Shown here in pieces: positions 25,619-64,000 of a stretch of 64,000 bases of DNA. Source of the DNA: Glomus cerebriforme (taxonomy: Eukaryota; Glomeromycota; Glomeromycetes; Glomerales; Glomeraceae); NCBI GenBank assembly GCA_003550305.1, contig QKYT01000075.1, forward strand, positions 155,226-219,225. The letters run 5' to 3'. The notes beneath the pieces were generated by a model. It was not told where the DNA came from and did no database searches. It saw only the letters and a program-made list of their open reading frames with translations. The stretch's first letter is position 1, and every line of letters starts with the position of its first letter. The position numbers were made by a program, and so were the translations under genes.

Positions 25619-27022
25619 TTAATGATTTATATAGTAAAATGACATTCTTATATCACGATCATGAGTTAAAATATAACTTATGGACATTCGGCTAATGTTT
25701 TGTCGTGTTATTAAAAAAGAATTCAGAGCTGCGATTTGACTACGAAAAAAGTGAATTAAATTACAATAAATACATGTATTTAAGCTTTTCCACAGAAAAT
25801 AAAGATATAAAACTTACATTTGATGATTATTATCAATTGTCAAAAACATTATTGTTAAATACTAATTCAAATATAGTCTAAAATGACAATAATAATGTAA
25901 TATTTACCTCTAAATCTTTGTCGAAGTCCATTAAATAAAATGTCTCTCCTTGAGTTAAAACTTATAGCTCTATTCGAGCGAGGAATACTCGCTAGTATAT
26001 TGGAACAAAAAAAAATTATTAAAATATAGTCTAAAATNNNNNNNNNNNNNNNNNNNNNNNNNNNNNNNNNNNNNNNNNNNNNNNNNNNNNNNNNNNNNNN
26101 NNNNNNNNNNNNNNNNNNNNNNNNNNNNNNNNNNNNNNNNNNNNNNNNNNNNNNNNNNNNNNNNNNNNNNNNNNNNNNNNNNNNNNNNNNNNNNNNNNNN
26201 NNNNNNNNNNNNNNNNNNNNNNNNNNNNNNNNNNNNNNNNNNNNNNNNNNNNNNNNNNNNNNNNNNNNNNNNNNNNNNNNNNNNNNNNNNNNNNNNNNNN
26301 NNNNNNNNNNNNNNNNNNNNNNNNNNNNNNNNNNNNNNNNNNNNNNNNNNNNNNNNNNNNNNNNNNNNNNNNNNNNNNNNNNAAAATGAATAATGAATAA
26401 TAATAACTGATTATTTACTTCTAAATCTTTGTCGTTGAAGTCTATTAAATAATATGTTTCTCCTAGGGTTAAAAATTATACCTCTATTCAAGCGACCAGG
26501 AATACGCGCTAGTACATTAGAATGAAAAAAAGCAGTTAAAAATGAAATACTTTTGCTCAAATGCGGGCACCTCATCCTCATGACAGTGAAAGAATAACGA
26601 AATAATGAGCCAAGTTAATGTCACCAGAATTCCATGGAATTTAGGGTGGCCCACACACATCTTTAAAGAGAAATATTACTTACTATAATAAAAAATTCGA
26701 CTCCACCTTTAGTATTCGTAAATTAAAGGAAGAAAAGTTAAAAATACAATTTATTCTGTAAATATATAATATAATGTAACATACATAATTCGACATTCCG
26801 CCGAACTTCGAGTTCTAACTTGACGAGAAATAAGATCCCAATTAGCAGTACCAAATCTGTTCACTGCGACGACCAATTGATTTAATTCCTATTATAAATA
26901 TCAAGTAAGTAACATAATTTTGCAATAATATAAAATATATCAAAGATATAGGAATTGTTTACAATAGACGCCCATGATAACGGATTTCTCATGAAAGAAT
27001 GTAATGGTTGTCGTGTATTCAT
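25619..27022 (-). CDS. Single-repeat Myb/SANT small protein, cluster copy A (interrupted by assembly gap)
   Basis: Exon 1 is 27022-26963 (20 codons, with ...RNPLSWASI). Exon 2 is 26888-26785 (104 nt) and carries the Myb helix region LVVAVNRFGTANWDLIS with TRSSAECR. The last exon, 25739-25619, encodes RMSISYIL, THDRDIRM and ends SFYYINH. The tail motif thus occurs twice at a 14-residue step. Two versions of the Arg-rich middle exon lie on either side of the N gap (about 26501-26415 and about 25992-25909). So this is either one gene with a duplicated exon or two genes whose missing parts lie in the gap. The micro-exon expected after exon 2 was not identified with certainty. Probable DNA-binding protein by domain; function unknown. 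Confidence 0.6.
26038..26382. other. Assembly gap (345 N)
   Basis: Run of N within cluster copy A. Both borders carry copies of the same exon, so the gap may be a collapsed or misjoined duplication. Confidence 0.99.
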
Positions 27023-27867
27023 TATATTAAATTCAAAAAAAAAAAAGATCGTTATTATATTTGACTGATATTTGAATCAGCGAAAAAGGTTAAATGGTAA
27101 AAAAGATTTTTAAAACGATTTAATGACGTATAAAATTTAAAAAAAAAGAAGGAAAAATCTATTTATATATTTGCGCGTAGTCTAATTTGAGTTTACATAG
27201 TTACGTAACAAAGTATATAAAAGTCCATTGATAAATAAATTTGTCTAGTGCATTTCCCCAACATAACTTTAAAAAAAAAAAATTGAACAAAATGAAATGA
27301 AAGCGGTTCAAAAGGGTAAATTTTACGGAATAAAAACAGATTAAATGAGGTTCATAAACAAAAAATAATAATAGTCTATTATAAACAGTTAAATTACTGG
27401 TGACTTACATTGTATTTTACTCCTTAATTTGGTAATTTTATGAATGGGAATGATTTAAGCTTGAACTAATACTGATTCATTTAAATGATAATAGAATTTA
27501 CCTACCCCATTATACAAAATTCTGGGTAAATCGCGATAAAATCTATTATTTTATTTTGAGATCAACACAAACAATACACAGATTAAGATTTATAATTATT
27601 TATACAAATTTGTTTCCTTTTGATAAAAAAAAAACAATGTATTTATTGTTTGTGATGCAAAATATGACGAAATTTTTTTTGGGGGGACCGTAAATAATAA
27701 CGATAAGATTTTCTATTATCATTATTTTTCTTGTTTTTGAAGGTGCAACAAAAATGCATTAAAAAATCCCTACGAAATGAAGGATTTACAGAATTTTGAT
27801 TAATTGGTGATAAATATAAATATGTCTCTTTGATTTGATCAATGTTTTGATATCAGAATCATTAAAT

Positions 27868-28421
27868 ATGCCGCCATTAAAAAAAGTAAATTCTCAACAA
27901 CGAAAAGGAAGGTGGACTCGAGCCGAGGATAATTTACTAAGAAGTCTTGTCGCTGAATATAATGTTAATGAAAATGTTATCATTAATTGGGCACAATTCG
28001 AAAGTCATTTTAATGGCACGAGAAATTCTAAACAGATTCGAGAAAGATGGTGTAATCATATAAATCCTACAAGTACAGTATTCTTTTTAATTTAAATTTA
28101 ATTTTATTAATGATTATCCAGTAAAGTAACGTATCATTAAATAAAATAGTTGAAAAGAGAAAATTTAATGACGACGAGATAAAAATGATTGAAAAAGAAT
28201 TTCTTACACATAAATTTCAATGGGCTAAAATTGCTAAAAGAATCCAAGGTACCAGCCCTCTTATGATAAAAAATTTTTATTATAATAATTTGAGAAAGAA
28301 AAATCCCGTCAAGCATGATAATGATGTTACCATTGCAAAACTTGCCACGATTCCTCTTATTGGTCCTCATCATGATTCTAGAAAATCCGAAAAAATGTCT
28401 CTATCTACAATTCTTAATTAA
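27868..28421 (+). CDS. Two-repeat Myb-like protein (cluster copy B)
   Basis: Two exons, 27868-28072 and 28150-28421, join in phase 1 to give 158 aa. The acceptor after aaaatag is chosen because it aligns NPT/IEKRKFNDDE with NET/INKSPLSEDE of copy E; the nearer ccag acceptor runs into a stop. Repeat 1 has RWTRAEDNLL, INWAQFESHF and KQIRERWCNHI, with the W-W-W core of a Myb repeat. Repeat 2 has FNDDEIKMIEKEF, FQWAKIAKRI and LMIKNFYYNNLRKK. The protein ends KMSLSTILN, the same kind of tail as the single-repeat genes around it. Nuclear DNA binding is expected from two adjacent Myb repeats. Targets are unknown. Confidence 0.8.
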
Positions 28422-29688
28422 CTCTTAATATCTTTATTTTTTTTTTTATTCGCTATACCATTTTTTCTTGTTAAATAACTTTATAGAATAGACTAATCCT
28501 TATCCTTTTTTTTAAAAAAAATATCGATATAAAAGATTAGTATATACAGTATATTTATTATATACAATATATAAATTTATAGTTAATAGATTTACCGAAT
28601 AGAACTTTATTTTGCTTAAAAATTTTTTTTACTAGAAATAAAATTCGATTTTTTAAAATTTTATAACTACAATGGAAATTAATTAATTGGTCCCATATTT
28701 TAAGTTGTATACGGATCGTCAAATTAACAATAGGAAAAGATATTAGTATTATAATTTAGTATTATAATAAACAATGGGTCATTTTGTTTAATAATCGTGT
28801 GAAATTTTACTTTATCCTTTTTTAATAATGTACTTCTTCCCGCTCCCTCTATTATTAATTTAATTGTTTATATTTATATTAAATTTCCCCAAATTATAAA
28901 GAAGTTTTAGTCCTTATATGTTATAAATGTTATATGGAGTAATTGAGATGAAATATCATTCATTATTACGAATTGAAATATATAAAAAAAAATTATATTG
29001 ATTGGAAATACTGTAAATTGAAATTAAAAAAAAATTTTTTTCAAATATTCGGTAAATTTACATATTTCAATTCTTCTATTTTTATGTAGAGCTATACCAA
29101 AAATATAACAGAATGGTAGAAATTTGTGATATTGTGACGTATTTCCTATTATTTCTATTATTACACAACTTCCAAAAAAAAAAAAAAATTTCTTTGTCAA
29201 ATCTGTTGCGTAGACAACTTTGTGTCAGATGACAGCTAACCAGTAAATTTTTTGCATACACAAATATTTGTCCTAAATCTTAAATGGAATGATGGAATGT
29301 TCTGAAAGAACAATCTTTTATGGATAACTGCATCGACGGGTGGCTGATGAGTAAATCTCCTTTTTTTCTTTAGACAATTAGGAAATCACCGTATACAAAT
29401 GATCAGGGTGCACATCACCATTGGTAAAGTGCTTTTTGCAGTGTGGTTATCATAATTTAATCTAGCCACTAAGTCCAGCCACAAGTGGTTTCCCATTTAG
29501 ATTATTCATTGTAAACAAAATGTCGATTTAAAATTTTAATATAGAATTATAAATTGATTCACTACCCTCTATTACCTCTCACTTCTCTCTCTAATTTTTT
29601 TTCGTAGAATATCAAAAATATATACACACACATATATTATACATATAGCTTTTATAGCTTTAAAATTATATTTATACTGATAATAAAG
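28422..29688. other. Intergenic between copies B and C
   Basis: AT-rich; promoter region of copy C at the right end. No further gene seen. Confidence 0.5.
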
Positions 29689-30609
29689 ATGAGTGCACAG
29701 CTACCATTTTTTTTCGCGAGAAATCCAATATGGACACCTACTGTAATCTCTTTTCTGTTATAACTTATTTTTGTTAGAAAAAAAACTCCACCCAAAAGAG
29801 GGATACATTATTTTATTAAAACTTGATCGATATATTTTCGGAAAGGTTTTGCAAAAAAATTTTTTTTAAAAAAAAAAAAATTTTTTTTCTTTAATAAAAA
29901 TTTAGGAAGAAAGTCGTTTAATCGTTGCTGTGAGTCGATTTGGTATTCGTAATTGGCATAGTATTTCTCGTGAAGTCAGTACTCGTAGTCCGATGGAATG
30001 TCGAAACAGGTGCGTTGCATTATATTTGTTTAACGAGGTGGTGTTATAAATTTGCGGCGCAGTACCAGCTTAAACGTTAAAACGTTTCAAAAATTAAGTT
30101 AAACTAATGATACGTATATTAATTATATTTAAAAATTCTTTTTTTTTATTTCGACAAAGATGGAGACGGATTATTTACATTGGTAAGATACCGAGAACCA
30201 CAAAAACTTGTCACGTGATCACGAATGTAATTCTTTTTTTTTCCTTTTCAAATACTAGCATATATGCTTCTACAGATTAATCATAATGTTAGCTCGAGTG
30301 CTTCCATGCCTTCCAACTATAGACCAAGAATGGCTCGAAGACCTAGAGGTATTGTTTTTTTTTAAAAAAAATCTAGTAGTATATTTTTTAATTAATTCTT
30401 GTCTTACTTAATAATAGCTGCTAATTATCGATTCCTCAGGAATAGCATGTTGGTTTATTTCATTATTTCGACGAATAATTTTGTTGTAATTTAATTAACG
30501 TAGTTTAATTAACAAAAATTTTAATTCTCTTTATAGTCGAAATACAACTTCAAACAATGTACCATCCCGTCGTGATATTAGAATGACATTAGATTACATT
30601 CTAAATTAA
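29689..30609 (+). CDS. Single-repeat Myb/SANT small protein (cluster copy C)
   Basis: Exons 29689-29742, 29906-30009, 30160-30182, 30259-30348, 30440-30452 and 30537-30609 give 118 aa. The 13-nt exon is needed to keep frame and is the weakest part. Exon 1 ends ARNPIWTPT with the first Myb Trp. Exon 2 carries EESRLIVAVSRFGIRNW (second Trp) and TRSPMECRNR. The 23-nt micro-exon supplies RWRRIIYIG with the third Trp. Exon 4 is Ser/Arg-rich. The tail is SRRDIRMTLDYILN followed directly by the stop. Near twin of copy D, 4.0 kb downstream. Expected to bind DNA as a small nuclear protein; nothing else is known from sequence. Confidence 0.75.
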
Positions 30610-33600
30610 ATTTTAATATATAACGTAACATATAATTTTTTTATTTTGTAATACCTTGGGTAAATTATAGGAATCAGATTAATTTTTTGGTTACATATGT
30701 AATTATACTTGTAAAAACAGATTTTCTAATTGTCATTATCGTTTATTATAAAAAAAATCGGTTGATGCATTTTATTTATTTTTTTTTTAATCAGTAGTGG
30801 TTTATCATTATTATATAAATTGCTTCATCGAAGTGACAAATAGACAAACTGGTCAAAAAGGTTAATTTTTGTGGTACTGTACCGTACGAAAGTGTTGATT
30901 GCAGAACAGTCCCATATAAATCGGGCTATAATAATTCGGGCTGACACTATAAGTTTGGCCAAAAAATTTTTTTATAGGAGGATCGATGATCCGGTCCAAA
31001 ATTGGTCCTATAGTCAGACCATTAACTTTTTTGTAATGAAAAACGATAATTCATTTTTGTAGTACAACAATAAAACAGGTAAATCATAAGAATTATTTTT
31101 TTTTGTTCCGCTGTATATATCTCTTATACCTATAAACAAGATTTTTCTCATCCAAAAAAAAAATAATAAATTGTATTTTATTTATTAACATCGGTTTATT
31201 CGTCAATATATAAAAAGTAAGATTTTAACCTCAAAATTAATTAAATTTTAAAGTTTGATAAAGTTTATTAAGTTTGGATATAGAATATAAAATGTAATTT
31301 AGATGTTTATTGCCTCTCTTTTAAAATGTCGTTGTACTTATCTAAGTGTATCACACATTTCTTTGGAGAGCATTCTTTTTTTTTTTTATGAAAGATTTTA
31401 AAATTTAAACAGCGTAATGCGATTGGTATAATGAAAATCAATTTCATAAACCTAATCAAATGTACAATTCATTTAATTTAACAAGAATTTTTGAATATTA
31501 TTGTAACAACTTCGTAGTGGAACGATAAAATTAACACAAGGAACATTATGAAATAAGAACTTACATACTAAACTATGTCATAAAACATCATATGTATAAT
31601 TACGTCATTTGATGTAAACAAAATTTTTTTACACGAAAAGAATTTTTTTATTTTCATTCATTCATTTATTTATTTATTTTTATACAAGATGACAAGTAAC
31701 TACTATATAATACTTATGAATGCTTTTGAAAATAATCTAGTCAAACCCCCAGATAATGTTCTAAATTTAAATTATAAAATTTATGGCGCATTCAATTCAA
31801 AATCAAATCCCGCCTTTAATTTATCGAACACGCAATATTCATGATACATGATTTTTATATGTTAGCTGTTTCAAAAGACTTTTGTGTAAATAGAATACAA
31901 AAGTATTTTATGAGTAAAAAATTAAAAAGTCTATGCTGATTGTTATATTTATCTTAAATTTTATAATTAAAGTAATTTTTTATTGTTAGTAAATTCAAAA
32001 TTTTCATTTGTGAAATCTAAATATGCAATAGTCAAATTTACTACGTCACATCATCAGCTAATCTAATCAATCTATCTATTCTATCTATGCGGTAAATGTT
32101 TTAATATCGATAAAGTATTAGGCGCGAAATTAATTAACCTAATAATCTAGAAATACCAGAAAATGCCTCGCAATAATTCTTTCAATAAAATTTAGTAAAA
32201 AAAAAAAAGGTTTAAAAAGAAAGTTTTTGTTCGCTATTATGCAAGTATTTTGATTAAGAGTGTTTCTCCTTATTTAGATTGATTATAGTTATTTATTAAT
32301 CACTGATGAGTAGTAAATATTCAGAAATGCAAATTTAAACTTTCGATATGAGAATCAATGGAATCGAAAAGGGAAACTTTTACCGAACTATTTGGTTTGC
32401 CAATTAAAAACAAAAAGGATGAGCTTATGTAAATGAATTATGGTTATGCAGAATGCTGATTGATCAAATGTTTCACAAAGTTCAGCGGAGACCAGGAGTT
32501 ATTTGGAAATAGCGCAATCAAGAACAAAACATACTTTTTTCAATATAATAGAAATGTGAAGAAATTTGTTAAAGAGTATGAGCATTATAGCAAAACTCCG
32601 TCGTGAATAATGTTAATAGCTTAAAATTTAAAATAAAATGCCATTGAGATTTAATCATTATGTAAACAGATTATGTTATTGATAAAATTGTGCAGATAAA
32701 ATTTCAAATTGAGCGATCTTATTCATTTTCATAAAATTAATGACAAACATTTTCCCAAAAGATATCAGATTTTATTAAGAGATTTTTCCAAAAAAGGTTT
32801 CTTTTAAGCGTAACTTCCGACATATGTACATTATTTGTTTATTCTTTGTAAAACAGTATGACAATGATTGTGACTGTTGAATAACCATCTAGCCATACAT
32901 GAAATAGTGCACTGTTTCAATTGTTGTAGCTATTAATTAGTTCTATGTTGTCTAATAACACTATAAAATGAAATCGATTAAACTGCATAAGTGCATATGG
33001 TATTTTTTTTTTTCACTGAATTTTTTTTATTACGTGTTCTTTTTCACACGTATTTTAGTTGGCTACTTCCGCCACCAATATCAAAAGTACAATATATATA
33101 TTATATATTCGTCATTTTAAAAAAGAATAATCTTAATTAGCTGATCTCTCCAGTTTCATAAACAGCGTAAATTTTGAAATCCGATTATTATTTAAAAAAA
33201 CAAATTGGTTTAAATTGGTTTGTAACATTAATTGCAAAAAAATGTTTATATGTCGTATTCGCAATAATGATTATTTGTTGTGAACTGATCGAGACTGCCA
33301 AAATGGTTAAGGAACTCCTATTTTTCAACGGGGGGTGTGCATAAATTAGTAGTATTATTGTAATATAATATATTATATATATATATATATATTCTTTATT
33401 TAATTTGTTTATATGTCACTTGTAGACATTGTGACTTAAAAAAAACATTATGGCGATTAGTTTATTCTTTGCGTGACTTAAAAAAACATTGTTTATTCTT
33501 TGCGTTACTTAAAAAAACATTGTTTATTCTTTGCGTTACTTAAAAAAAACATTATGGCGATTAGTTCCGATCGGCATTTTGTGGCATTTTGTGTTGGAAC

Positions 33601-33711
33601 CTATTCAATCTTGAATATAAAAATAATCAAAATTTCTCTCCTTCAATATAATTTTTTTTCCACCGAAATACATTTCAAATTGTATTTTATTCTTTTTTGA
33701 CGGAAATAAAG
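30610..33711. other. Intergenic between copies C and D
   Basis: About 3.1 kb. It begins with 3' flank shared with copy D (30,800-30,860 resembles 35,345-35,400). It contains a fragment near 30,925-30,970 resembling part of 35,665-35,705 in inverted orientation, and the 31-bp minisatellite near its end. No gene supported. Confidence 0.5.
33434..33564 (+). repeat. 31-bp minisatellite with flanking direct repeats
   Basis: tttattctttgcg starts at 33461, 33492 and 33523 (period 31, three copies). The block is bracketed by acttaaaaaaaacattatgg copies at about 33434 and 33539. Confidence 0.85.
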
Positions 33712-34891
33712 ATGAGTGTACAGCTCCCAAATTTTTTCGCTAGAAACCCGTTATGGTCACCTATTGTAAAAATGGGTTTCTCTTTTCTGTTGTAAATTAT
33801 TTTTTATGTATAAAATTACTAAAAATTATTTTATTAGGAAGAAAGTCGTCTAATAGTTGCAGTGAATCGATTTGGTATTCGTAGTTGGAGTCGTATTTCT
33901 CGTGAAGTTAGAACTCGTAGTTCGATAGAATGTCGAAACAGGTGTGTTGTATATATTATATTTGTTATATTATGACTAGCGTTTAGGCTGTCCCACCTTA
34001 TAAATTAGTTTAATGTCTGGCCAAATCGGAAAGATAGATATTTTGCGGTGAAAATATGTTTATCTTTACAAGGAATGATTCGTCATCCCTTTAAAACTTC
34101 CCCAAAAAATAATTTGTGACAAATAGAATTTCATATACTATACTGCTGTTTTGACAGTAAAAAATGAAAAAGCAGAGAGAGACGGAATGAATAACTTTAA
34201 TCACGTGATTTAGTTGTTTTTGCAAAATTTTTCCACCTCACGTGACCTTTAAAATGTCACATCCCTGTTTTCCATTTTTACTATGTACTCCAGGGACCGG
34301 TGTATTTGTCACACTTATTTGTCACATTGTTAATTTCTTAATGCCATAATGCCGGCCGAAATCACGTGGGGTGGAAATTTTTTGTGGCGATACTGGGGTA
34401 AATGTTTTTTGGTGATTTATCACGTGTAACTGACATTAATTGTGAACCAATTTTTTTTTTATTTTGATAGATGGAGATGGATTATTTACATCGGTAAGAT
34501 TACCTGCATAAATTCAGTTTTCATGTGATCACGTATGTAATTCTTCTATTTCAAAATACCAGCGTGTATGCTTCTACAGATTAATCGTAATATTAGCTCG
34601 AATGCTATACCAAGAAGAACTCGAAGACTCAGAGGTAGAATACTATTATTATTATTATTTAATTTTAAAAAGTTAATAATAATTCTTTTCACGTAATAGC
34701 TATCAATAATCGTCAATTAACTCGCTTCAGGAATAACATGTTAGTTTATTATCATTACTTCTACAGGTAATGTTTATATTGTAATATTTAATTAATAAAG
34801 ATTTAATTCTCTTTATAGTCAAAATCCTGCTTCAAATAGTGTACCATCCCGTCGTGATATTAGAATGACATTAGATTACATTTTAAATTAA
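33712..34891 (+). CDS. Single-repeat Myb/SANT small protein (cluster copy D)
   Basis: Exons 33712-33765, 33838-33941, 34471-34493, 34563-34634, 34731-34743 and 34819-34891 give 112 aa. It has the same exon plan as copy C, with first, second and third exons of identical length (54, 104, 23 nt). Myb core: ARNPLWSPI/EESRLIVAVNRFGIRSW, then TRSSIECRNR/WRWIIYIG. The middle is Arg-rich (IPRRTRRLRG) and the tail is SRRDIRMTLDYILN plus stop. The second intron is long (about 530 bp) and contains several TCACGTGA-like palindromes. Recent duplicate of copy C including 3' flank. Confidence 0.75.
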
Positions 34892-36627: not shown

Positions 36628-37555
36628 TCAGTTTAAAACGTATGACAATCTCATCCTCCTTCGAATTCTTAAAGCGGATTTTGGTTTTTTAAAATTATTA
36701 CGGTATATGAAGTTCTTCACAATCAATGGAGTTCTTCCTGGTAACATTTCAGAAATTTGAACATAGGTCAATTCAGGTTTTTGACGATGCATTTGTAATA
36801 TACGACGTTCTTCATCCTCGGATAATGGGCTTTTATTTACTGAATTTTATCAGGAAAAAAAAAAATGGGTTTAGTCCAAAAATGATTAAATGATATCAGA
36901 ATATAATAACAATGGATAACAAAGATTATATAATAAGTCCTGAGTTAAATCTGCATTCTTTGCGTCCATTGTATCAAATAAAAAATTTTAATTGGATATC
37001 AATTTTGAATGGGTTCAAAGAATACTGCAGTTTAAGGAATAGCAAGGGTTTAGGGTTTACGTATTGAGATGCATATTCAACATTTGGAAATATATATATA
37101 TATATATAACTTACTCGTTTCATTTAAATGGTTTATCCACCTTAATAAATAATATAGATATAAGTTAGTTTGATATGTATGATGACATTATTTTGCATAT
37201 ATCAAGAAATAGTTAAATTAAAAATCTACCGTTCTCTACATTGTTTTGCAGTACGTGTTCTCATTTGATGAGAAATTATTGCCCAAGAGATGGGTTCATT
37301 TATATGATTATTTCTATAATTTTTTACCAGGTAAAAGAGACGTTTGTCCTCCTGAAAAAATAATGTCAATGAAAAAAAAGGAATTTGAGTACAAACACAA
37401 CAACACGTGGAAAATCAAATTTTTCCGTGACAGATAACAACTAATTCTAGTTATATCAATTTACACAGCATATAACTAAATATAAATATTTTTATTTTTT
37501 ATATTTTTTTTTTTTTTTTTACCTGATCATTCCATGAACCTCTAACGTTAGTCAT
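36628..37555 (-). CDS. Two-repeat Myb-like protein (cluster copy E)
   Basis: Four exons on the minus strand: 37555-37523, 37351-37230, 37140-37115 and 36839-36628, 130 aa. Repeat 1: RGSWNDQ/EDKRLFYLVKNY, then PISWAIISHQMRTRTAKQCRER/WINHL, with three Trp. The slashes mark introns in phases 0 and 2, the same positions as in the single-repeat genes. Repeat 2: SPLSEDEERRILQMH, TYVQISEMLPGRTP, LIVKNFIYRNN. The end is Arg-rich and finishes RMRLSYVLN plus stop, the cluster tail. The shared intron positions suggest the single-repeat genes derive from this form by loss of repeat 2. Complete and apparently functional. Confidence 0.82.
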
Positions 37556-39707: not shown

Positions 39708-40651
39708 TTACGGTGCGTTTGAGTTAAAGAAATGCGGTACAGGGTTATTAATTGTATTTTCCAAAATATATCCCAATGTCATCCGAATATCTCTATCATG
39801 TGTTAAAATACGGTTTATAGACATTGCATTTTGAGTAACAGTCAATGTTTGACTAGAAAAAAAAATTTTTTTTTTTTTTTTTGTTTAATTAAATTGATTT
39901 GTTTGTTAAATATTTGTTAAATAATAAGTAAACTTACATTGTATTTGCGAATTGAGGCCGATTGACATTTACTAACAATGTGAATGTGTGATATTTTATT
40001 AAATTTTCATATCAACTCAAAAAAAAAAAAAAGATTAAACATCTTAAATTTTGGATCCTTACATGCACGTCTTTGAGGTCTAATACGATATCTTCTAATA
40101 GCTCCAGAACCGCCTGGAATTAATGCTCTATACAGCCGATTAAGATTATGCACTATGTAAAAAAAAGGTTACCCTTTTATTCATGGGACGTAATAATTAT
40201 CCAATCACTATACATATCTAATTATTTACCATGAAAATTTAACTGACGCCATCTTTAAAAAATATATATATATATATTTAAACGTAAATAATATAAATAT
40301 TTTTAAAATTACAATAATGCGATTATCTATAAATAAACAAACCTGGCTTGACATTCTCTTGGACCACGAGTTACAACACTTTGAGAAATACGATCCCAAT
40401 TACGAGAACCGTATTGCCATACAGCAGTAATTAATAGATTATCTTCCTATTATATTTTTTAAAATAGGTATTAGTTTATTAAATTAAATAAAATATTATC
40501 CTAAGTTATGCGCAGTATCACCAAATATACCATACTGGGCCTCTCTAGGATCTAAACATTTCGCGGTAAAATAAAATTATCTTAAAATAAAATAAAATAT
40601 ATTTACAGCAAGTGTCCACGGAGGTATAAGTAAAACAAATAACTGGCTCAT
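39708..40651 (-). CDS. Single-repeat Myb/SANT small protein (cluster copy F)
   Basis: Six exons on the minus strand: 40651-40607, 40446-40343, 40252-40230, 40152-40063, 39971-39938 and 39852-39708. Every phase closes, giving 146 aa. Myb core: LIPPWTLA/EDNLLITAVWQYGSRNW, TRGPRECQAR/WRQLNFH. Exon 4 (90 nt) is Arg-rich (SGAIRRYRIRPQRRA). The last exon has two tail motifs 14 residues apart, MSINRIL and RMTLGYILEN, and then about 16 further residues before the stop, so its tail is longer than that of its relatives. It has the same 104/23/90-nt exon lengths as copy C. The first exon is hydrophobic (MSQLFVLLIPP), unlike the other copies. Confidence 0.8.
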
Positions 40652-42224: not shown

Positions 42225-42852
42225 TTATTTAAGAAGAAATTTAATACTCATTCTATAATCTGAATTTAAGATGAAGTTAATTGACATTCTATAATCACGT
42301 GGTGAAATAGATAACGGGGCGCTAATATAATTTTATCATTTAGTGATGATCATCAGTCATAATTTCATTCAAAAAAAAAACTTACATTGGAGGAGGAAGC
42401 GGTCTTCGTCGTTGTACAACTGTTAAATGTAAATACGCTCGTTAAACAATTTTTATTTGTTTCAAAATTAATTATAGTTTAGAAAACTCACAGTTTGCTA
42501 TTGCAAGTTGACGATACCTAAAGCGCATAAAGCGCATAAAGCGCATTGCAATAAGAAAATCAAATCGTAGCTCTTAATAATCGTATCACGTTTTTTTTAG
42601 CAAATATTGTTAAGAATAAAATGTTAAGAATTAAAATAAAAACCTCCTTCTGCATTGAGAAGCTGTCCTTGTCCCAATCCTAAGTGCGATTACTTGCCAG
42701 TTACCAATACCAAAAACATTAACATACGACATAAGATCACCCTCTTCCTATATAAACAAATTAAAATCTCACATTAATTATTAATAGATTTAAATTATAA
42801 GAAAATAATATACAGTATATACTTGAGGTGTCCAAGGCCTGCTCTGATTCAT
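42225..42852 (-). CDS. Single-repeat Myb/SANT small protein (cluster copy G)
   Basis: Five exons on the minus strand: 42852-42823, 42747-42644, 42517-42492, 42419-42386 and 42321-42225, 96 aa, all phases consistent. Myb core: MNQSRPWTPQ/EEGDLMSYVNVFGIGNW, TRTASQCRRR/YRQLAIAN, so the third aromatic is Tyr. The middle is VQRRRPLPPP. The last exon has two tail motifs 12 residues apart, RMSINFILN and RMSIKFLLK plus stop. The intron before exon 3 carries three copies of aagcgcat in tandem at about 42,521-42,546. Compact and intact. Confidence 0.82.
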
Positions 42853-45926: not shown

Positions 45927-46601
45927 TTATGGGAAACCCGACCATGAATTTATTATAAAATTAATATCCATTCTGTGGTCCGGATTTAAAAGGAAATTTA
46001 TTAACAACCTTGAACTGCGGGGAGTTAATGAAGTCGGTGGTACGAAATTGTTGTTGCTGGAAAAAATGTATGGTCAATTTTAGCATTATAAATAGCTAGT
46101 AAATCTCCCGTTTATTTTCTGAATTTAAAACACTTACTTTGAGGGAAAAAGCAGAAAAGGTCTTCTTGTGGCTTTAAAACAAGAAATATGCTTGTTAATA
46201 TTAATTGAGTTACCACGACATGTATTTATTTTATAAATAATAATTTATTTACTTACTATTTGCTCTCACAAGATGGCGATATCTATAGTTTTATATATGC
46301 GTATAAAAATGAATATATTATTTTTTATTTGCTTCGAGATTATTTGATTATTAAGGAAAGAAGATATGAACCTTTTTCTACATTGGTATGCGTTCCTTGA
46401 TCCAAGTAGAGATGCAATTTGCGGCCAATTACCGATCGGACCGAGTTGATTAACGAACGCAATAAGCCGACTTTCTTCCTAACAGATTGCGAGAATTATT
46501 AAAATAAATAAATTAAAAACAAAAATACAATAAAGTTTAATGCATGTTATACGTACATTCGATGTCCAAGGCCCTCTTTGTACTACACGCCGTCGAGACA
46601 T
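45927..46601 (-). CDS. Single-repeat Myb/SANT small protein (cluster copy H)
   Basis: Five exons on the minus strand: 46601-46557, 46478-46372, 46282-46257, 46171-46138 and 46056-45927, 113 aa, all phases consistent. Myb core: VQRGPWTSN/EESRLIAFVNQLGPIGNW, GSRNAYQCRKR/YRHLVRAN; exon 2 is 107 nt, one codon longer than in its neighbours. The middle is Thr/Arg-rich, then NNNNFVPPT. The tail has RLLINFLLN and RMDINFIIN 12 residues apart, followed by SWSGFP and the stop. The start codon context and basic N-terminus (MSRRRVVQRG) are plausible for a nuclear protein. Function unknown beyond expected DNA binding. Confidence 0.82.
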
Positions 46602-49604: not shown

Positions 49605-49870
49605 CCAGCGCGAATTATTCTATGGATCAATCATAATATTAGTGTTATTCCTAGAAAAACGTCAAAATCATAGAATTAATTATTTTTATTATTTTTCGGA
49701 ATGTATGTTTTAATTTTATTCGTCAATCATCTCGCTATTATCACTATATTTTATGTATAATTAATTTTATTGTAAACAAAAATTTAATAATATTTTGCTG
49801 TACAAACGTATCAACATTTTGTGATATTAGAATAGCGTTAGAACATGTTTTGATACCAATTCTAGCATGC
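49605..49870 (+). pseudogene. 3' relic of a plus-strand single-repeat Myb gene (copy I)
   Basis: aatgccagcg and ggatcaatcataatattag match the exon 4 start of copies C and D. After about 190 bp of similarly spaced sequence, tgtgatattagaatagcgtt matches the tail exon, with ATG changed to ATA in the RM codon pair and the YILN end lost. The Myb exons cannot be recognised upstream. A dead copy. Confidence 0.6.
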
Positions 49871-51334: not shown

Positions 51335-52590
51335 GACGTACAGTATGATATTCAATTTTCATTTAACCAATTTCTCCAAATAAAACTCAAATTTTACTTT
51401 CTTAATTTACATTTTGTTACTAAGTGAAATTGTAGAGTCAATAAAATCACACATATATTCCAATTTTAAAGATTATATAATCAATAAATAAGTCTCACGC
51501 CAAATTTTTGTGTCAATTTTTACGTTCGATTTACGTCCTTGACAATTTCTCTACATAAAACTAAGAAATGCCTTTCTTAATCTACTTATCACTAAATAAA
51601 ATTGTAAAGACAATAAAATTACATATATCTTCCAATTTTGAGAATTATATAATCAATAAATAAGTCTCCCGCCAAATTTTTGTGTTTAATTATAAGAGTT
51701 GCGTCTAATTTTTACGTTCGTTTTAACGTTTTTGACAATGTCNCCATATAAAACTAAAAATTGCCTTTCTTTATCTACTTTTTGTTATTAAATAAAATTT
51801 TAGAGACAATAAAATTACACATATCATCCGATTTTAAAGATTATATAATTAATAAATAAGTCTCACGCCAAATTTTTGTGATTAATTATAAGAGTTGCGT
51901 CTAATTTTTACGTTCGTTTTAACGTTTTTGACAATGTCCCCATATAAAACTAAAAATTGCCTTTCTTTATCTACTTTTTGTTATTAAATAAAATTTTAGA
52001 GACAATAAAATTACACATATCTTCCAATTTTAAAGATTATATAATTAATAAATAAGTCTCACGCCAAATTTTTGTGTTTATAATAACAATTTTTATGTTC
52101 GATTTACGTTTTTTTGATAGTTTCTCTATATAAAACTCGGAATTGGCTTTCTTAATTTATTTTTTGTTTCTAAATAAAATTGTAGAGAATATAAAGTTAC
52201 ATCTCTTCTCCAATTTTGAGGGATTATGTAATCATAAATAAGTACCACGCCAAAATTTTGTGTTTGCTATAAATGATTTTCGTCCAATTTTTCGTTCCAT
52301 TTTGGCATTTTGATAGTTTCTCCATATAAAACTTAAAATCTACATTTTTTAATCCGATTATTATACTAAACAAAATTGTAAAGGCGATAAAAATTATACA
52401 TAATCCTTAATTTTGAGACTTTTAAACAAATATATAAGATTCACGCCCAAATTTTTAAGTTTCTCAATAAAAATTCGTCCTTTCTCTCACGATCGGCATT
52501 TCTTTACCTACTAAAGCTAGTCTAAAGCTAATACTAAATTGTGAAAAATTTTTATTATACAGTATATAGTTAGAAATTATTACCACATTT
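51335..52590 (+). repeat. ~196-bp tandem repeat, six recognisable units
   Basis: The anchor aagtctcacgccaaatttt recurs at 51490, 51662, 51858, 52054, 52240 and 52436, giving steps of 172, 196, 196, 186 and 196. The central units are nearly identical and identity falls outward. Each unit also has a ttacgttcgt stretch, a ctccatataaaact stretch and attacacatat. No ORF spans a unit. One N at 51743. Confidence 0.88.
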
Positions 52591-53756: not shown

Positions 53757-54686
53757 TCATTCTACGTTCAAAATATAATTTATATTCATCCTTGGATCTT
53801 GAGGAGTATTTAGAATAAAATTCAGGTCCATTCTACGACCATTGGTATTTCTGAAATCAAAATATAGTATTATATTATTAAATTATAATTCGGATCAGTT
53901 GCTCAAACTTGTTAACTATTAAGATCTATCTAGATTAATATTAATTTAACGTCCCCCCTCAATCAAAAATAATATACTCGGGAAGAGTAATCAATTTTGA
54001 ATGACCTAACGGTCAAGCTGTTGTAATTGGTAGTTGTTATTGTTGTTGATATTGCTTCTATCGCTGTTTGATGCTAACTATATATATCATCATACAAAAA
54101 AAAAAAAAAAAAATAAAAGAACTTACTGTTGAGCTAAAAGTTGAATTCTTTGAAACATTCCTCCAATAGGTATTAAACGAAGTCTTTGACGGAATCTTCG
54201 GTTAACTCTCCTACGAAATATCCTTCGAAATCTTTCTGCGCCTATAAATAATTATTAAAGATCTGTTAATGTTAAAGAAATCGCTTTAAAATACTTTTAT
54301 CAAAAATGTAAAGACTTACTTCCAAGAGCTATAAGATTAAAATACCTATAATTTATAAATTTTATTTTACAAAAGGTGAATATTTTTGCGATAAGATAGC
54401 GAAAAAAAAATAATAAATAACATATATAGTACATACCTCCTCCTACATTGCGAAGGACTTCTTCCTAGTACATTGGAGATTTGTATCCAGTCTCCAATAC
54501 CAATAAAATGTACTAACATAATAAGTTCTGTATCCTCCTAATAGTTTTTTTTAATAAAATAATTATGGTATAAATATTTAAATTCTAAATCAACGAACGA
54601 AAAAAAAAAATTTAAATATATACTCTGACTCTCCAAGGATGTCGCGGTAGTTGTAAGTTCCATTGATTATTATTATTATTATCCAT
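53757..54686 (-). CDS. Single-repeat Myb/SANT small protein (cluster copy J)
   Basis: Five exons on the minus strand: 54686-54624, 54537-54437, 54345-54320, 54241-54127 and 53850-53757, 132 aa, all phases consistent. The N-terminus has an Asn run, then LPRHPWRVR with the first Trp. Exon 2 gives EDTELIMLVHFIGIGDW and LGRSPSQCRRR; the third aromatic is Tyr in RYFNLIALG. Exon 4 is strikingly basic (AERFRRIFRRRVNRRFRQRL), a likely nuclear-localisation or nucleic-acid contact segment. The tail has RMDLNFILN and RMNINYILN exactly 14 residues apart. Closest to copy N by exon lengths and sequence. Confidence 0.83.
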
Positions 54687-56551
54687 GGTAATATATAAAG
54701 AATAATAAAGCAGTTAAGACCGTAAAAAAAAATTTTTTTATATAATAAGCAGTTGAGGATGGTCGAAATGTAGATGAGAAATGCGTATATGTAAAGACGA
54801 AATTATGATCAACTGATCAATAAAATTGCCGGCTTTCATTATTTTTATTTACTCTATTAGATATAAGTTCTTAAATTTTACTGGGAAAAAAAATTAACTG
54901 TATATAAAAAAAACAAACGAGGGAAAGATGATATTCAACAAAGCAACACAACTCTAGGTGAATAATAGCTCATATAGCGTTCTTATATACTTGTTATTTC
55001 CTATTTTGTTTTTTTCTCACGCGCCCTCTATTTATATGTTGTACCAATTACGTTATTTTATTAAAAAAAGCAATAACCCATCTATAATATATGGAATATG
55101 GATCTGATAATCGTTTTTAAGAAACATTATATTATTGGACATACTTTATTGCACGCTACATATAAAAGTCAAGAAGAAATATTTTAAACCCTTTTTCTGC
55201 CTTTAAGTAAATTTGTAGAGCAGCCAAAAATACATATAGCATATGACTTTTTAAAGCATATAGAAAGTATATAAGATTTGCACAAAGTTTATTTAAAAAA
55301 TCTGATTTCAAATTACATAATAAAACTAATTTGTTTAACAGCATTATATAAAAATAAAGCTGTTTTAATTCTTTGTTCCAAGATTCTCATCAGACCAAAA
55401 AGTGAAACAGCTCTACTTCTATAATTTCTAACATTATAAGAATCTAATTTGATAAACTAAAATTCATTACGTAAATCTGATTTTTTTTTTCGTGAAAAAT
55501 CCGACAATCTGCAAATCCTCCCTGAAGACCCTGATAATTAACCATAGATGAATTAGATGATGTTCCAAAGCAGTTAGTTCTTTTTTCTGATATAATAAAT
55601 TTTCTTGGAATTCATTCAAAGTAATTCATATTGACTTTCAACTAGAATTCGGTACAATATTATTCTATGTTTAATATTTCCCACTCCAAAAATCAATTAT
55701 TATTAATATTATATACATAAAATAGGTTATTCTCATGAAAAAGTGTACAGTAACCTAGTAATCCAGATAATATGAGATTTGTGAAGTTTCCAAAAAAAAA
55801 GTTAGCATTTTGAATCGTTTAATGTTTAATAATGAAAAAAACTTCTCCTTTAGCTTGTAAAGGTTTGTCATTAAGAAAAAAGACCTCCTTCGATTTTGCC
55901 ATTTGCATATTCAATTCTTTAAATTCTATTTCATCTTTACATTTTTCACAAGTAAAATAAAACTTGGAGTGTCTGTAATAGAAATGGTGCATTAAAGTGC
56001 AACAAGTATTGAAAAACACAAACTCAATTTTGAAAATTTATTAAAAAATAATCAGACCTACAGTACATACAGTATATATACCAACAGACGAAATCTGACG
56101 ATCTAAATGATAAAGTTATAGACATTTATTATAAAAAAGATCTGATCTCTTACATAACAGGTCTAAAGGATCAATAATTAATAAAAATTACAGCTAAAAA
56201 ATACTGTATAAATAATTATAACTCTAAAATAATTATAATTTGTTAAATAAATGTATTGGTATCTCCCCATTTAATAAAAGTTTAGTCTTTTAGGTTTAAG
56301 TTATTGACGACAAAAATAACAGTCCACTAGAATTGACGATTTCCCAATAGCCTGACTAATAATTAAATAATTAAATATATTATTTCCAGAATAGACGGAA
56401 AAGACAGAATTGCTAAGTAGTGGTCAACGATGTCGTTCCTGAAATTAAAATAAAATTCAATTTAGCTTGAAAAAATGACAAAATTTGCAACTATTGTCTA
56501 TAGGTATTGAATTTTTTTTCTTTAACTTTTAGTAGATAATACTTACAATAT
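54687..56551. other. Intergenic between copies J and K
   Basis: A minus-strand frame at 55,819-56,019 contains FTCEKCKDEIEF (a CxxC) but has no relatives in the window and no support. Otherwise AT-rich. Confidence 0.45.
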
Positions 56552-57166
56552 TTAATGTCGGTCATGATGCATATGACGACAACCATGAACTCTTCGCATG
56601 ACTAAAAAAAAATTTTTTTTTTTTATTAAGATTAGTATTTATCATAAAAATAATAATAATGTAAAGTCCATCATAAATATAATAAATAGCATTATAAATA
56701 TTGATGTATTCTCCCGTAATTTAATTATAAATTATGCCGTTATTAATAGATCATAATACTTGAGTGTTATACTCACGTCCTCTTGCCAAGAGTTCAAGAT
56801 ATCTAAAAAATTTTCGTTTGTGAAAATAAAACGATTTAATATATTGTATAAAAAGTTATATTTGCATTAATATTGTTGATAAATAAAATTTTATAATTCA
56901 TACTTTTTCCTACATTCAACAGGTGTTTTCCCAACTTCCGGTCCGATTAACATCCACTTGGGACCATGTATATCCAAAGACTTACCGAGTTGAGTCACCT
57001 CCTATATAATTAAAAAAGGTTCTAAACTTATACATTACAATAAATTAAAAGTCCAAGAAAAACAATGTTAGCATACATAATTATTCCAAGGGCCCTTGCG
57101 ATATTGGAAATTATTTCTAACATTTCTAGGTTTCAGAGGTTTCGGGGAATTATTATAAGTTTCCAT
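56552..57166 (-). CDS. Truncated single-repeat Myb/SANT small protein (cluster copy K)
   Basis: Exons on the minus strand: 57166-57077, 57001-56904, 56802-56777 and 56601-56552, giving 87 aa. Exon 1 is longer than usual and ends QYRKGPWNNY. Exon 2 gives EVTQLGKSLDIHGPKW and GKTPVECRKK; the micro-exon gives YLELLARG. Exon 4 then reaches an in-frame stop a few bases before its donor site, so the RM/YIL tail of the family is not made. Downstream sequence at about 56,440-56,380 shows no tail motif either. The helix core is more divergent than in other copies. It could be a young pseudogene or a tail-less variant. Confidence 0.65.
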
Positions 57167-58719: not shown

Positions 58720-59090
58720 TACAGCAGGACCGAATTCAATATAATCACTTATAGTCGTCCAAGATTCAACAAAAATCCTGAGTACTCTTCATTGATTTTT
58801 CAATTAAACTTTCTGCTGAAGACGACCTGTTTAAAAAGAATAAATTCTATTAAAAAAAACTTATTAGTTTAAGCAAATATTTAAAAGGAAATTATATTTA
58901 TACATAATTCTATAATCATGTGCCGCTCTTGTTGAAAATATAACTGAAATTGTTGTAATTAGTGACCTGTCATTGACATGTTCGTCAACCAACTCATTTT
59001 AAAGTAAAATTTTCTTCTAATATATATATATATATATTAATAATTAAAAAAAAAAAGTCAAGAACATACCTCGTCTTTGTAAAGAGGTTG
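58720..59090 (-). pseudogene. Relic of a single-repeat Myb gene (copy L)
   Basis: Reading the minus strand from about 59,010, EENFTLK is followed after a frame change by ELVDEH and then ISVIFSTRAAHDYR. This parallels FVDLIKEH and ISSILSTRTEKDCR of copy M. The second Myb Trp is replaced by Arg and the Cys of the xCR motif by Tyr. An exon 1-like piece ending in a gtatg donor lies near 59,070. A frameshift and lost core residues mark it as dead. Confidence 0.55.
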
Positions 59091-62080
59091 ATGTTTGAAA
59101 ACAAAATAGAACGAATTTAAAAGAAGAAATTTGACATTAATATCCACTTGATAATGTTTGCTAGACGTAGTAAATTTTACAATCAAATTTACATTCCTAC
59201 TTAGTGTTTCAGTATTCGCAGATTAATCTCTTAAAATTTCCAAAACAGGCAGCTACAAGGTCATTTCAATGATATTGCATATTTAATGCTAATTTTTTTC
59301 TCTATTAAATTAACAATTAGGAAAAGATAAGTCAGAATTTGCAAAATATTTAAAGAATATTTATATTATACAAAGATTCGGAGATATATAATTTTAGTAT
59401 CATTGAAACCGACATACAATGACTATTTGTGTAATGTTTGATTTATTGTTTTTCAATTTAAGTTAAATTAATTATTATGCAGGTTGATTAACATATACAA
59501 GAAAAAACAAGCCGAAAAAAAAGGAAGGAATGAATAAATAAATCGACGACATTCATGTAACATAAAGTTATAACCTGTAAGTCAATGAAAATAAATTTGT
59601 ATATTCATACAGATATATATGTTCAATACAAACATTAATAAATCACGCAAGTTTTCTTGGCAAATCATAGAGATTATCGATTATTTTTAATTCATAAGTT
59701 TATATAAATTTTATTTGGTACGCTGATGTAGTGTTATCCACATGTATCGACACATATATTGTATGTACAGTACAGCATACAATACTCGCAAGTATAATAT
59801 TTATAATTTAATCATTAAACGTCTCTTTAAAAAAAAAAATTTAATATATATATATTTATTTATTTATTTATTTAATTTTAAATAATTAAGGACGACGTAA
59901 CTTTTAATCATTTATCTCATTTATCCTGGAATACATTTAATTTTGCGACCATACTATCTAAAAATTAGAAAAGATGCCCCTTTAAGTACTCAACTATAGC
60001 TAAATTGAATATTTGTAAAGAAGTTGTTAACCTATCTCTTATTCTGAAATATTGTGTTAATATTTTGGAATCATTATTATATATAAGAATTAGAATTTTT
60101 TAAATAAATAGACTCATTTGTAAGGTTAAAAATTTCTTAATAGTCAAAATCAATTTAAAAATATCTTTTAAGTAAAAAATCTGAAATCAATTAATCATTT
60201 AATTGTGAATCTGGAACTGAAATAAAGTATTTTAAAACAAATATAATCGAAAAGATAATAATTATTAACAAACGTTATTTACCTTCTAGATTACATTACC
60301 GCCCAAATTCAAATCATTGGACTTCAAATCCCAAATTAAAAAATTAAAGTATTGTGTCCCAAATTCTAAATCCAGACAAATTTTCGTTGGCATGTATACC
60401 TCTGAATGTTACATTGTTTTAATCACTGACTGATTGTTGTTACCTTCACTTCATCATCATATGTTACATTTTTCTACCATTATATCATATGTGGGTTTCC
60501 ACCTAATGCTTCAGCCTTCAGTTGCTACATAAGAAAGTACTCCACTAACATCTGAAAAATAGAAGATTTGAATTATATTAATTATATTTTATTATGCAAA
60601 TTCCAAATCTGAAATTCGTTATATTATAAATATACTTGGACATTATTTAAAGATTCAAGATTACTTACAATAATTCATAAAAAAAATCTAGTTTGTGTTT
60701 ACACAGTCGAAATGAGAAAAATTGCTTTTAAGATACTCTCTTAAATTTGATTTGAGTCTTTTATTATACCATCAAAGCGTATAATTGAAACAATGATTAA
60801 GGATATTATCTAAATAAACAAAGTAGTTATCATAAATAATAATAATTATAAACTTAATTTTTTTTAAGAAAAATTACCTTATTTACCTTATTTAATAAAT
60901 ATTCTAATAATAATCTTGGGTGTACTATCTTAAATCACGGTCGAAAAATTTTGGTAAAATCGCCCAATAGGTTCGATATCTTGAAATTTATCATAAAGGT
61001 ATTCCTTTAAGTTGAGCCTCATGGATGAAATTATCTATTTAATGGTTCAACTTTTTTTTTCCTTCAATCATGATCTTATATCATGCAAGCCCAATATTCA
61101 GTTTTTATATAATCTTGACATACAGTACATCATTCCTTTTAATTTGTCTTTTCAATTATTATTGATGAAAAATAAGTTTCAAATTTTATTATTAATATTA
61201 TTTGGAATATTTTTTTCTTAAAATTATATTATAAAAATTATATATTCAATATAAAAAAAAATCAATTATTTTATTGTTTATGAAAAGTAAATTATGTTAC
61301 GAAGTTCGATACTCAAAGTTTCCGGAGACGTATTTATTTAAAATGATGTTACACGAGCAATTGACAGCCTAACGCCAGCCATTTGATCACGTGAATGCAC
61401 ATAACACTGCATAACTCTGGCCAAACTCGGGTAAATGTCCTGCCTGGATTTTGTCCTGTCGGGATATCGTCCCAAATAAAAGAAATACTGTAGCAAAGTG
61501 CTTGAAGAATTGATTAGCATATCTAAAATCTCAATATTTTATGGGAATTAAAACAAACTGGGATTTTTTTACAAAAAAAAAAAACTTAAAAACGCAAAAC
61601 CTGGAGATTTAAGATTTTTAATTTTGTGATTTCTTGAAAAAATTAGTAGACTAAAATAGTTAGCGGCGGGAATTTTTGTATTTGTCGTTATATTTGACTT
61701 TCAAACGCCTCAAATAAGGAGGTGCAAATAAAGTATCTTTTTAAAGCTAACTATATTTATGTCATTGTGCATCTCACATTTAAAGATAAGCATTGTTGTT
61801 ATAACAGTAAATCTTATATACCTCCTTATAATTTAGGGTGAGTAACCAGAAATCGATTGGGGTTATATATTCATTAATGTAATTAAAAAAAAAATGGCGT
61901 AATCGGTGCAGCAGGTTTCCAAATTAATACGTTTAATAGATATAAGATTATTAAAGAAAATTAGTTAAAAAATTTAATAAGATATGAAAAAAAAAAATAT
62001 TTAAATAAGAACAATAACAGAAAATAAATCCAATGTGGGAGGATTATTTAAAATATCTCCCTAGGTATTGTGAAAATAAT
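59091..62080. other. Long intergenic stretch between relic L and copy N
   Basis: About 3 kb of AT-rich DNA. Short frames at 61,012 and 61,338 lack features. No supported gene, RNA or large repeat. Confidence 0.5.
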
Positions 62081-62873
62081 TTATGGATCACGAGTAATAT
62101 GACAAACATAACCTATCTCCATTCTAGGATCACGAGAATCATTGCAAATATACTCTATCTCCATTCTAGGATCACGGGAATAATTGCGAATATACTCTAT
62201 CTCCATTCTAGGATCACGAGTTGTGATGTCATTTCTGTAATAAAGAAAATCCAGCGGAGCATCAATTTAAACAGTTTAGACGGTGAGCTGTGACATATTC
62301 ATAATCATAAAGAAAAAAACCTAACAGTTGATCTAAAAGAACTCTTTGAAGTATTCCTTGAATAACTATTGGACGATATCCTTGAGAAAATCTTTGGTTG
62401 ACTCTTCTACGAAAAGTTCTTCGAGCACTTTCTATACCTATGAATAAGAAACAAGCATATTAATGATTCGTCCATTATAAAGCGTAACAATACCCAACAA
62501 TACCCTTATCAAAATTGTACTTACTACTATCATGACCTACAAGATCCAAATACCTAAAATTTTATTGTGCAAAAGAGAAAATATGAATTTCCTATTCCAC
62601 TCAGAACTATAATGGAAAAGAAAAAAGATATATACCTCCTCCTACATTGAAAAGGACTTCTTCCAAGTGGGCGAGAAATTCTCGTCCAATCACGAACGCG
62701 AGAAATAATAACGAAAAGAAGCAGCAGCAAATCTTCCTGTAAATAATATAAATTAATATAAATGTATATTTTTTTTAAAAAAAGGGTATGGTAAAGTTTT
62801 GAAAGCAATTTTCTTAATATTATATAAATGTGTATACAAATAAGGTCCATTGGTATCGTGGAATCTGCGGCAT
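62081..62873 (-). CDS. Single-repeat Myb/SANT protein with amplified C-terminal tail repeats (cluster copy N)
   Basis: Five exons on the minus strand: 62873-62838, 62736-62636, 62553-62525, 62437-62326 and 62234-62081, 143 aa, all phases consistent. Myb core: RYQWTLF/EDLLLLLFVIISRVRDW, LGRSPFQCRRR/YLDLVGH. Exon 4 is basic (ARRTFRRRVNQRF) and aligns with exon 4 of copy J. The last exon encodes three tandem copies of the tail, each of the form RDPRMEIEYIRNYS, at an exact 14-residue (42-bp) step, then a final RDP and the stop. The third copy reads RMEIGYVCH, so it is drifting. This is the most repeat-rich tail in the window. Confidence 0.85.
62105..62222 (-). repeat. 42-bp intragenic tandem repeat in the tail exon of copy N
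   Basis: ctatctccattctaggatca starts at 62113, 62155 and 62197 on the plus strand. It encodes the RMEIEYI tail on the minus strand, so unit length is a whole number of codons. Confidence 0.92.
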
Positions 62874-63402
62874 GTCGAAATAAAGAATATATTTATAAAC
62901 AGTGTTAAGGTTGAAAGCTGTTAAAAAAAATCAAGCAATAAAAAATCAGGAATTGAACAAACCAAAGAAGGCACATCAAATATATGCTAAATTTCGGAGA
63001 CGAGTTAACTATTTCCTTGTTTTGTTTTACGCGATTTAATAAAAAAAAACTATTGTGATCGAGAAAAGTTTAGCTGGCAAAATTGCACTAAACTTTATTA
63101 GAATTTATAGCATTCAGAATTCAGGTAAAACTGACAAATCAGGAGTCCAACTGGAGAAACTGTTCCTGATTTGGTAGTTCAGGGTTAGCAACCATTACGT
63201 ATTTTACCGCTAAAAAAATAAATTCTTAAAATAGCTAAATAAACGCTGCCGACCGGAGTTAACCATTTAAGTTGAAATTATAAACTTGATTGATTTTTAA
63301 AAAAGGAAACTAATACAAAAATGTAATTTATTATTTTTTTTTTAAAAAAAACAATGATACTAAATGAATATTTTATATGTACTAAATGCGTGTATTTTTT
63401 TT

Positions 63403-64000
63403 TTAATTCAAAATGTAATCTAAATCCATCCTTTGATCTCGATTTAAAAGAAAATTTATTGTAAGCCTAGAATTTGGTAAAATTACCGAAACGGTTGAAA
63501 ATCCTGTATCATTGTCATTATTTCTGAAATTCAATAAAAAAAATATGTTATTGCAATACTTTAATACTTTTAAATCTATTATTAAATCTATTAAATTATA
63601 AAAATATTTACTGTTGAAGGACTCTTTTCATACCTGTAAAAATAGTAAAACAATTTGAAATTTGATTTATTAATGTAAAAAATTATACGATTTGATAAAA
63701 ATATTTAATGTACTTACTATTTGATTTTGAAAGTTCTTCGTACCTAAAAATTTTATTTTTTATAATTAAAAATCAAAATATTTTTAAATAAATTTTGAGG
63801 ATTTTTTTTTTTAAAAAAAAATATTATACTTGATTCTACAATCTTTTTCTGTTCTCGTTGATAATATAGATGAAATTAATTGCCAATTAGTGTTATGTTC
63901 TTTGATTAAATCAACAAATTGAATTTCTTCCTGTAAAAACCGAATAAAATATTAATATAAATAAAATAAATAGTCATGAATATATAAAATATATATACAT
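63403..64000 (-). CDS. Single-repeat Myb/SANT small protein (cluster copy M, 5' partial)
   Basis: Exons on the minus strand: 63930-63830, 63743-63718, 63633-63612 and 63523-63403, all phases consistent. The first exon lies at or beyond the window edge. Exon 2 gives EEIQFVDLIKEHNTNW and LSTRTEKDCRIK; the micro-exon gives YEELSKSN. Exon 4 is only 22 nt. The final exon has an Asn/Asp-rich start, then RLTINFLLN and RMDLDYILN 12 residues apart, ending at the stop. The tail end is identical to copies C and D (LDYILN). Confidence 0.78.

Follow-up and report, generated by a model that had tools for sequence, protein, structure and literature searches.

The 64,000-nucleotide stretch of DNA from the arbuscular mycorrhizal fungus Glomus (Rhizophagus) cerebriforme analysed here (GenBank QKYT01000075.1, our contig C890, positions 155226-219225; hereafter the window) carries a cluster of small Myb genes: nine with a single Myb repeat, two with two repeats, one clearly degenerate copy and one possible relic. 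Three further intact genes lie beyond the window on the same contig, a single-repeat gene at 226 kb and the two-repeat genes U228 (228 kb) and V239 (239 kb); in all, the array comprises 14 intact loci over ~59 kb (contig positions 180,844-239,749), ~20 kb of it past the window. To judge from their sequences, the single-repeat genes are most likely derived from a two-repeat Myb that lost its R3 repeat, and both the reality of the genes and their descent from an R2R3-type Myb are well supported. More tentatively, with a probability of about 0.45, we read the array as encoding a family of small nuclear DNA-binding regulators that would have diversified in the sites they read, all sharing a constant tail that would dock a cofactor, perhaps a Tup1-type co-repressor. 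The loci, in window coordinates, are as follows.

25619..27022, minus strand: G1, single-repeat Myb gene; exons 26963-27022, 26785-26888, 26684-26706, 26419-26508 (4a) and 25908-25991 (4b), tail 25619-25728.
27868..28421, plus strand: C2, two-repeat Myb gene of two exons, C-terminus EKMSLSTILN; recognised by Pfam, with a partial public protein, P0013.
29689..30609, plus strand: E, single-repeat Myb gene of six exons, 124 amino acids (aa); equals P0004.
33712..34891, plus strand: F, single-repeat Myb gene of six exons, 121 aa, a paralog of E; P0007 has a different exon 1.
36628..37555, minus strand: T37, two-repeat Myb gene of four exons, 130 aa, C-terminus RRMRLSYVLN; equals P0012.
39708..40651, minus strand: H40, single-repeat Myb gene of six exons with two tail motifs; within the fused P0001.
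42225..42852, minus strand: J42, single-repeat Myb gene of five exons with two tail motifs (36-bp tandem repeat); fused in P0001.
45927..46601, minus strand: K46, single-repeat Myb gene of five exons, 113 aa, two tail motifs; equals P0003.
53757..54686, minus strand: N54, single-repeat Myb gene of five exons, 132 aa, with an Arg-rich exon 4 and two tail motifs; equals P0002.
56363..57166, minus strand: degenerate copy, exons 1-3 readable and the rest broken; Myb profile 23.7 bits against a cut-off of 24.4.
58897..58995, minus strand: possible relic of a central Myb exon (tblastn E 0.076, judged by eye).
62081..62873, minus strand: P62, single-repeat Myb gene of five exons with three tail motifs (42-bp tandem repeat); exons 2-5 lie inside the fused P0026, and the bounds of the tail exon (62081-62234) were counted by hand.
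63403..63930, minus strand: Q63, single-repeat Myb gene, exons 2-5; exon 1 unseen, with N bases past the window; partly in P0026.

These exon models were built by hand, and all of their introns are of the GT..AG type, with phases 0, 2, 1, (1) and 2. Two of the single-repeat genes are interrupted: Q63 is cut by the end of the window, and G1 spans an assembly gap (26038-26382) that separates its exons 4a and 4b. The route from G1 to its tail is one among several in-frame paths, the chosen one omitting exon 5. Exon 4 of this gene is duplicated, with one copy on each side of the gap (25908-26508), and the gap could hold more copies. An initial annotation of this DNA had counted at least 14 genes and relics, spread over 38 kb on both strands. 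The cluster and the use of both strands stand, but the array is longer, and the window holds 13 loci at most; since the gap lies inside the gene at 25.6-27.0 kb, that gene may have been counted twice. The same annotation's picture of one Myb family with common introns, an in-frame tail, at least one relic and copies of unequal age is supported, whereas its view that every member has a single Myb is not, C2 and T37 each carrying two repeats.

A hidden Markov model (HMM) of the central Myb exon gives 51-70 bits to ten window copies, but it was built from those same copies and these scores are therefore not the fairest measure; members outside the window and the Pfam profile are fairer. Three outside members (L012, L009 and L013) reach 36-39 bits with this HMM, which never exceeded 14.1 bits in 50 dinucleotide-shuffled versions of the window. 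Of the 11 window genes, all but G1 and P62 (9 of 11) are picked out, exon by exon, by the curated Pfam Myb profile. Nine of the ten proteins scanned, a set without full-length G1 and Q63, pass the cut-off of at least one Pfam Myb profile (PF00249 or PF13921), and the degenerate copy at 57 kb falls below both. Above the cut-offs, the ten proteins matched nothing but Myb among the profiles scanned, with neither a KRAB box nor C2H2 fingers. When the masked window was searched by tblastn for further relics, nine weak rows were returned, and the one at 58.9 kb was retained by visual judgement as a possible relic; a further two, with lower E values (0.026 and 0.032), were set aside, no Myb exon being visible in them.

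The suggestion that such genes are hidden from annotation based on open reading frames turned out to be mostly wrong, with ten public proteins covering 12 of the 14 intact loci. Our models of E, K46, N54 and T37 are letter-identical to P0004, P0003, P0002 and P0012, that of E matching C1645_817640 of G. cerebriforme over its full length, although identity to a public gene model is not the same as transcript evidence. The public annotation fuses J42 with H40 (P0001) and P62 with Q63 (P0026), four genes in two models, and domain counts based on it will consequently be off. That J42 and H40 are separate genes is argued by P0010, a stand-alone Rhizophagus irregularis relative of J42 that has its own tail. 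The public model of the 226-kb gene is cut short, and U228 corresponds to P0017; G1 and V239 were not among the results of our three protein searches, neither being a query. The tail is in frame with the Myb repeat in the hand models and in the public models P0002-P0005, P0010, P0012 and P0027.

As for the origin of the family, two adjacent Myb repeats, the mark of an R2R3 Myb, are found in C2, T37, U228 and V239; the single-repeat genes lack this pair and for that reason are not filed as R2R3 Mybs. The best match of the two-repeat profile is the R2R3 region of c-Myb (1h88, E 1.9e-41), over both repeats. In a 32-row tree the R3 repeats are set apart from the R2 and single repeats (support 95/84). 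With the single repeats on the R2 side of this tree, they are not of the CPC/TRY type, which is characterised by an R3-type repeat. The single-repeat genes and T37 have three introns in common (one in phase 0 that follows the first Trp block, one in phase 2 ahead of the third aromatic residue and one in phase 1 about eight residues further on), the third of which is retained in C2. Plant CPC and TRY are also single-repeat MYBs, and plant MYBL2 has a C-terminal repression motif. The array genes resemble these plant proteins in having one repeat from an R2R3 Myb, a small size and a short C-terminal motif, but CPC and TRY keep R3 whereas the array repeats group with R2; the two are of independent origin.

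The family extends to other fungi. The three protein searches gave 11, 14 and 11 overlapping matches at E ≤0.001; the named single-repeat matches are from G. cerebriforme, R. irregularis, R. clarus and R. diaphanus, and the named two-repeat matches from these four and Funneliformis geosporum. Likely R. irregularis orthologs exist for N54, K46, J42, P62, T37 and V239, and none was found for E, F or H40, all three of which were queried (G1 was not). In the tree, J42, T37 and V239 group with R. irregularis proteins, and N54 does so weakly; the pairs K46/P0009 and P62/P0027 are based on similarity, since the former is not resolved in the tree and the latter lies outside it. Neighbouring locus tags among the R. 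irregularis (RhiirA5_494421 and 494424) and R. clarus (RclHR1_06850006 and 06850009) relatives, together with the same source contig size (62,681) for three R. diaphanus proteins, suggest that these three species have the array too. Elsewhere in the searched G. cerebriforme genome (112.5 Mb, 1,117 contigs), contig C458 has a second small array (L012, L013 and L028; 204-238 kb), in which the genes at 204 and 238 kb encode 76-77 aa, little beyond the Myb repeat and tail, and the copy at 213 kb is broken. One more single-repeat copy lies on contig C276.

The position at which these repeats differ most is one expected to read DNA. In the complex of WER with DNA, bases are contacted by K55, which lies two positions ahead of Cys57 in R2 and whose loss costs >40-fold in affinity; R52, R58 and R60 contact phosphates (PMC7145699). 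At the K55-equivalent column our 12 single-repeat sequences have A, M, I, R, S, Y, S, F, K, Q, L and L; it is the most variable of 49 columns (3.25 bits, the next 2.92), several others being nearly as variable (2.8-2.9 bits). Lysine is present there in all eight two-repeat R2 sequences versus 1 of the 12 single-repeat ones; the C276 copy, outside the 12, also has it. The two-repeat genes resemble c-Myb and plant WER both in this lysine and in matching both repeats, and the single-repeat genes differ from R2R3 Mybs in having only an R2-type repeat, in mostly lacking the lysine, and in being short with a repeated tail. Arginine occupies the R52, R58 and R60 equivalents in 12, 8 and 10 of the 12 single-repeat sequences. 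Counting ties, the K55-equivalent comes first in 194 of 220 nine-sequence subsets, and it ties with one other column when three close paralogs are removed. Across a ten-column helix-3 core in four R. irregularis pairs (N54/P0005, J42/P0010, K46/P0009 and P62/P0027), 5 of 40 cells differ, three at the K55-equivalent and two at its neighbour; the chance of such a concentration is 0.0064 for the named column and 0.064 for any of the ten. P0006, P0030, P0031 and P0032, members of the same groups that were left out of this count, have L, L, K and F at the K55-equivalent. This is what changing specificity with the grip on DNA kept would look like. The earlier idea of competing or combinatorial DNA-binding factors is compatible with it, because the residue expected to read bases varies.

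The second common feature is the tail motif, approximately R-M-x-[IL]-[ND]-x-[IL]-L-N, which all 12 single-repeat proteins carry in one to three copies at, or no more than 25 residues from, the C-terminus. Two of the four two-repeat genes, C2 and T37, end in it as well, and it recurs in the relatives P0005, P0006, P0010, P0027 and P0019, with four copies in R. irregularis P0027 and the C-terminus KKMSISSILNI in Funneliformis P0019. In J42 and P62 the copies are tandem DNA repeats, of 36 and 42 bp. Conservation of the tail varies: for N54/P0005 and J42/P0010 together, 42 of 55 tail residues are conserved versus 62 of 91 in the Myb repeat; in the two-repeat pairs, the tail is conserved about as well as the repeats or less. 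A strict DNA pattern (motif plus stop) occurs at three places in 112 Mb, all in the array, and at none in the reversed control, while a KMSxSxILN-like DNA pattern had no match. The protein pattern gives 23 matches in 16 proteins against a mean of 0.27 and a maximum of 3 in 1000 shuffles, a circular test since the pattern was written from such tails. An earlier regular expression made from the window copies returned 22 rows: 14 within family tails inside the window, three within family tails beyond it and five elsewhere. Yeast alpha2 begins with MNKIPIKDLLN, and its N-terminal domain binds Tup1 (PMC10163088); in that segment the hydrophobic residues ahead of the Asn have the same spacing as in the tail. 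The genome has a Tup_N match on contig C663 (positions 1-33 of 77), and the tail as a putative Tup1-recruiting motif is a lead.

Our preferred account builds on what can be read from the sequences themselves: the gene structures, the R2 likeness, the conserved and repeated tail, the variable column and the Rhizophagus relatives. An R2R3-type Myb ancestor would have given rise to the single-repeat members by keeping an R2-type repeat and losing R3; the C-terminal motif would have been retained and then multiplied in many of them. We infer that the genes are expressed and that the Myb repeat binds DNA, gripping it through the conserved helix-3 arginines. As the residue that reads bases in a known R2 repeat is altered in nearly every copy, the sites favoured by the copies would differ or be relaxed. 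A common cofactor, in all likelihood a co-repressor of the Tup1 type, would be docked by the tail (phi-x-phi-x-x-phi-[LI]-N), making the copies alternative or competing repressors; on balance, the array products are probably repressive. Several points weigh against this account. The tree has a basis of 51 columns and several long branches. U228 and V239 end in TITINSFN and KMSVNNIK, which do not match the tail pattern, and in K46/P0009 (7 of 25 residues conserved vs 34 of 47) and P62/P0027 (21 of 46 vs 24 of 46) conservation is lower in the tail than in the Myb repeat. The link from the tail to Tup1 consists solely of the likeness in spacing. The variability argument has a small and partly post hoc sample: the ten-column core was our own choice, and three columns close beyond its edge (+5, +6 and +8) also differ in three of the four pairs, which means that the variability extends past the base-reading site. 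Finally, dN/dS values between copies, a check proposed in the initial annotation, are fairly high (NG86, 0.51 between E and F, and 0.23-0.65 across five paralog pairs); they do indicate purifying selection overall, if not a strong one.

DNA binding by a lone Myb repeat is often weak, and the single-repeat proteins could instead, like CPC and TRY, mainly compete with the two-repeat Mybs, binding little DNA and occupying their partners or cofactor via the tail. Each has only one repeat, and tail and array are common to both types; however, most of the arginines that would contact phosphates are retained (12, 8 and 10 of 12) and it is R2, not the R3 of CPC/TRY, that remains, and we consider this unlikely. 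We rate as equally unlikely that the tail serves in activation, oligomerisation or degradation and the proteins are not repressors: short hydrophobic motifs can act in these ways, and the repetition would suit a dose effect, but against this stands the spacing of alpha2, which is the sole pointer to repression. It is rather doubtful, and argued by analogy, that we are dealing with a fungal counterpart of KRAB zinc-finger arrays, in which selection would keep the base-contacting residue of tandem small Myb repressors, each with a constant and multiplied cofactor tail, changing, perhaps because of a conflict with mobile elements or in the service of strain or cell-type identity. The vertebrate KRAB genes form arrays with relics and combine a constant module with a DNA-reading module whose base-reading residue is variable, which the Myb array resembles; the domains are different, and repression and mobile-element targets are putative here.

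Mere decay of duplicates under relaxed selection, the variable column reflecting no more than a loss of DNA reading, could account for the relics, for the dN/dS values and for the other columns at 2.8-2.9 bits. This is improbable given that the reading frames and splice sites are intact, that the fold residues and the Arg of the R52 column are invariant in 12 of 12 single-repeat sequences, and that relatives are retained in several species. Least probable by far are effectors delivered to the plant nucleus: the proteins are small and mostly basic, and the single-repeat type is so far found only in Rhizophagus, but no signal peptide is seen by eye (a predictor was not used) and the two-repeat relatives resemble ordinary nuclear Mybs. 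A link to mating type was dropped, because none of six homeodomain places and none of 127 listed HMG-box places (150 of 196 candidates were scored) is on contig C890.

Between K46 and N54 lies a tandem array (51508-52402; 196-bp unit, 4.6 copies). The upstream part of the window (1-24700) contains an exonuclease-like gene (2-367), an amino-acid transporter (3253-3663), an IscU/NifU_N gene (19097-19411) and the C-terminal part of an Fe/Mn superoxide dismutase (22600-22944); five of the ten frames scanned there had no match. The HMG-box matches are grouped, with 5, 6, 4 and 4 of the 127 listed on contigs C711, C413, C351 and C308; another, at C87:43601-43804, lies inside a 14,733-aa open frame, possibly an N run read through.

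The large HMG-box families of arbuscular mycorrhizal fungi (AMF) are comparable to the Myb array in that these fungi have numerous small regulators of that type too, with several to a contig (at least 127 HMG_box matches here), but they have another domain, and none of the 127 listed matches is on the array contig. The Gigaspora rosea paper reports >100 HMG-box proteins and names one validated transcription factor (PMC4771724). We found no description of such a Myb array in the open-licence literature searched, and the main text of two AMF genome papers, PMC4771724 included, does not mention 'Myb'. AMF are partners of most land plants, yet only a small number of their transcription factors have been given a role. 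As a compact natural set whose copies and relatives differ at the residue that reads bases in known Mybs and keep the rest of the helix largely the same, the array allows binding sites to be tied to a single residue. It would also show regulators diversifying through gene birth and death in organisms other than animals.

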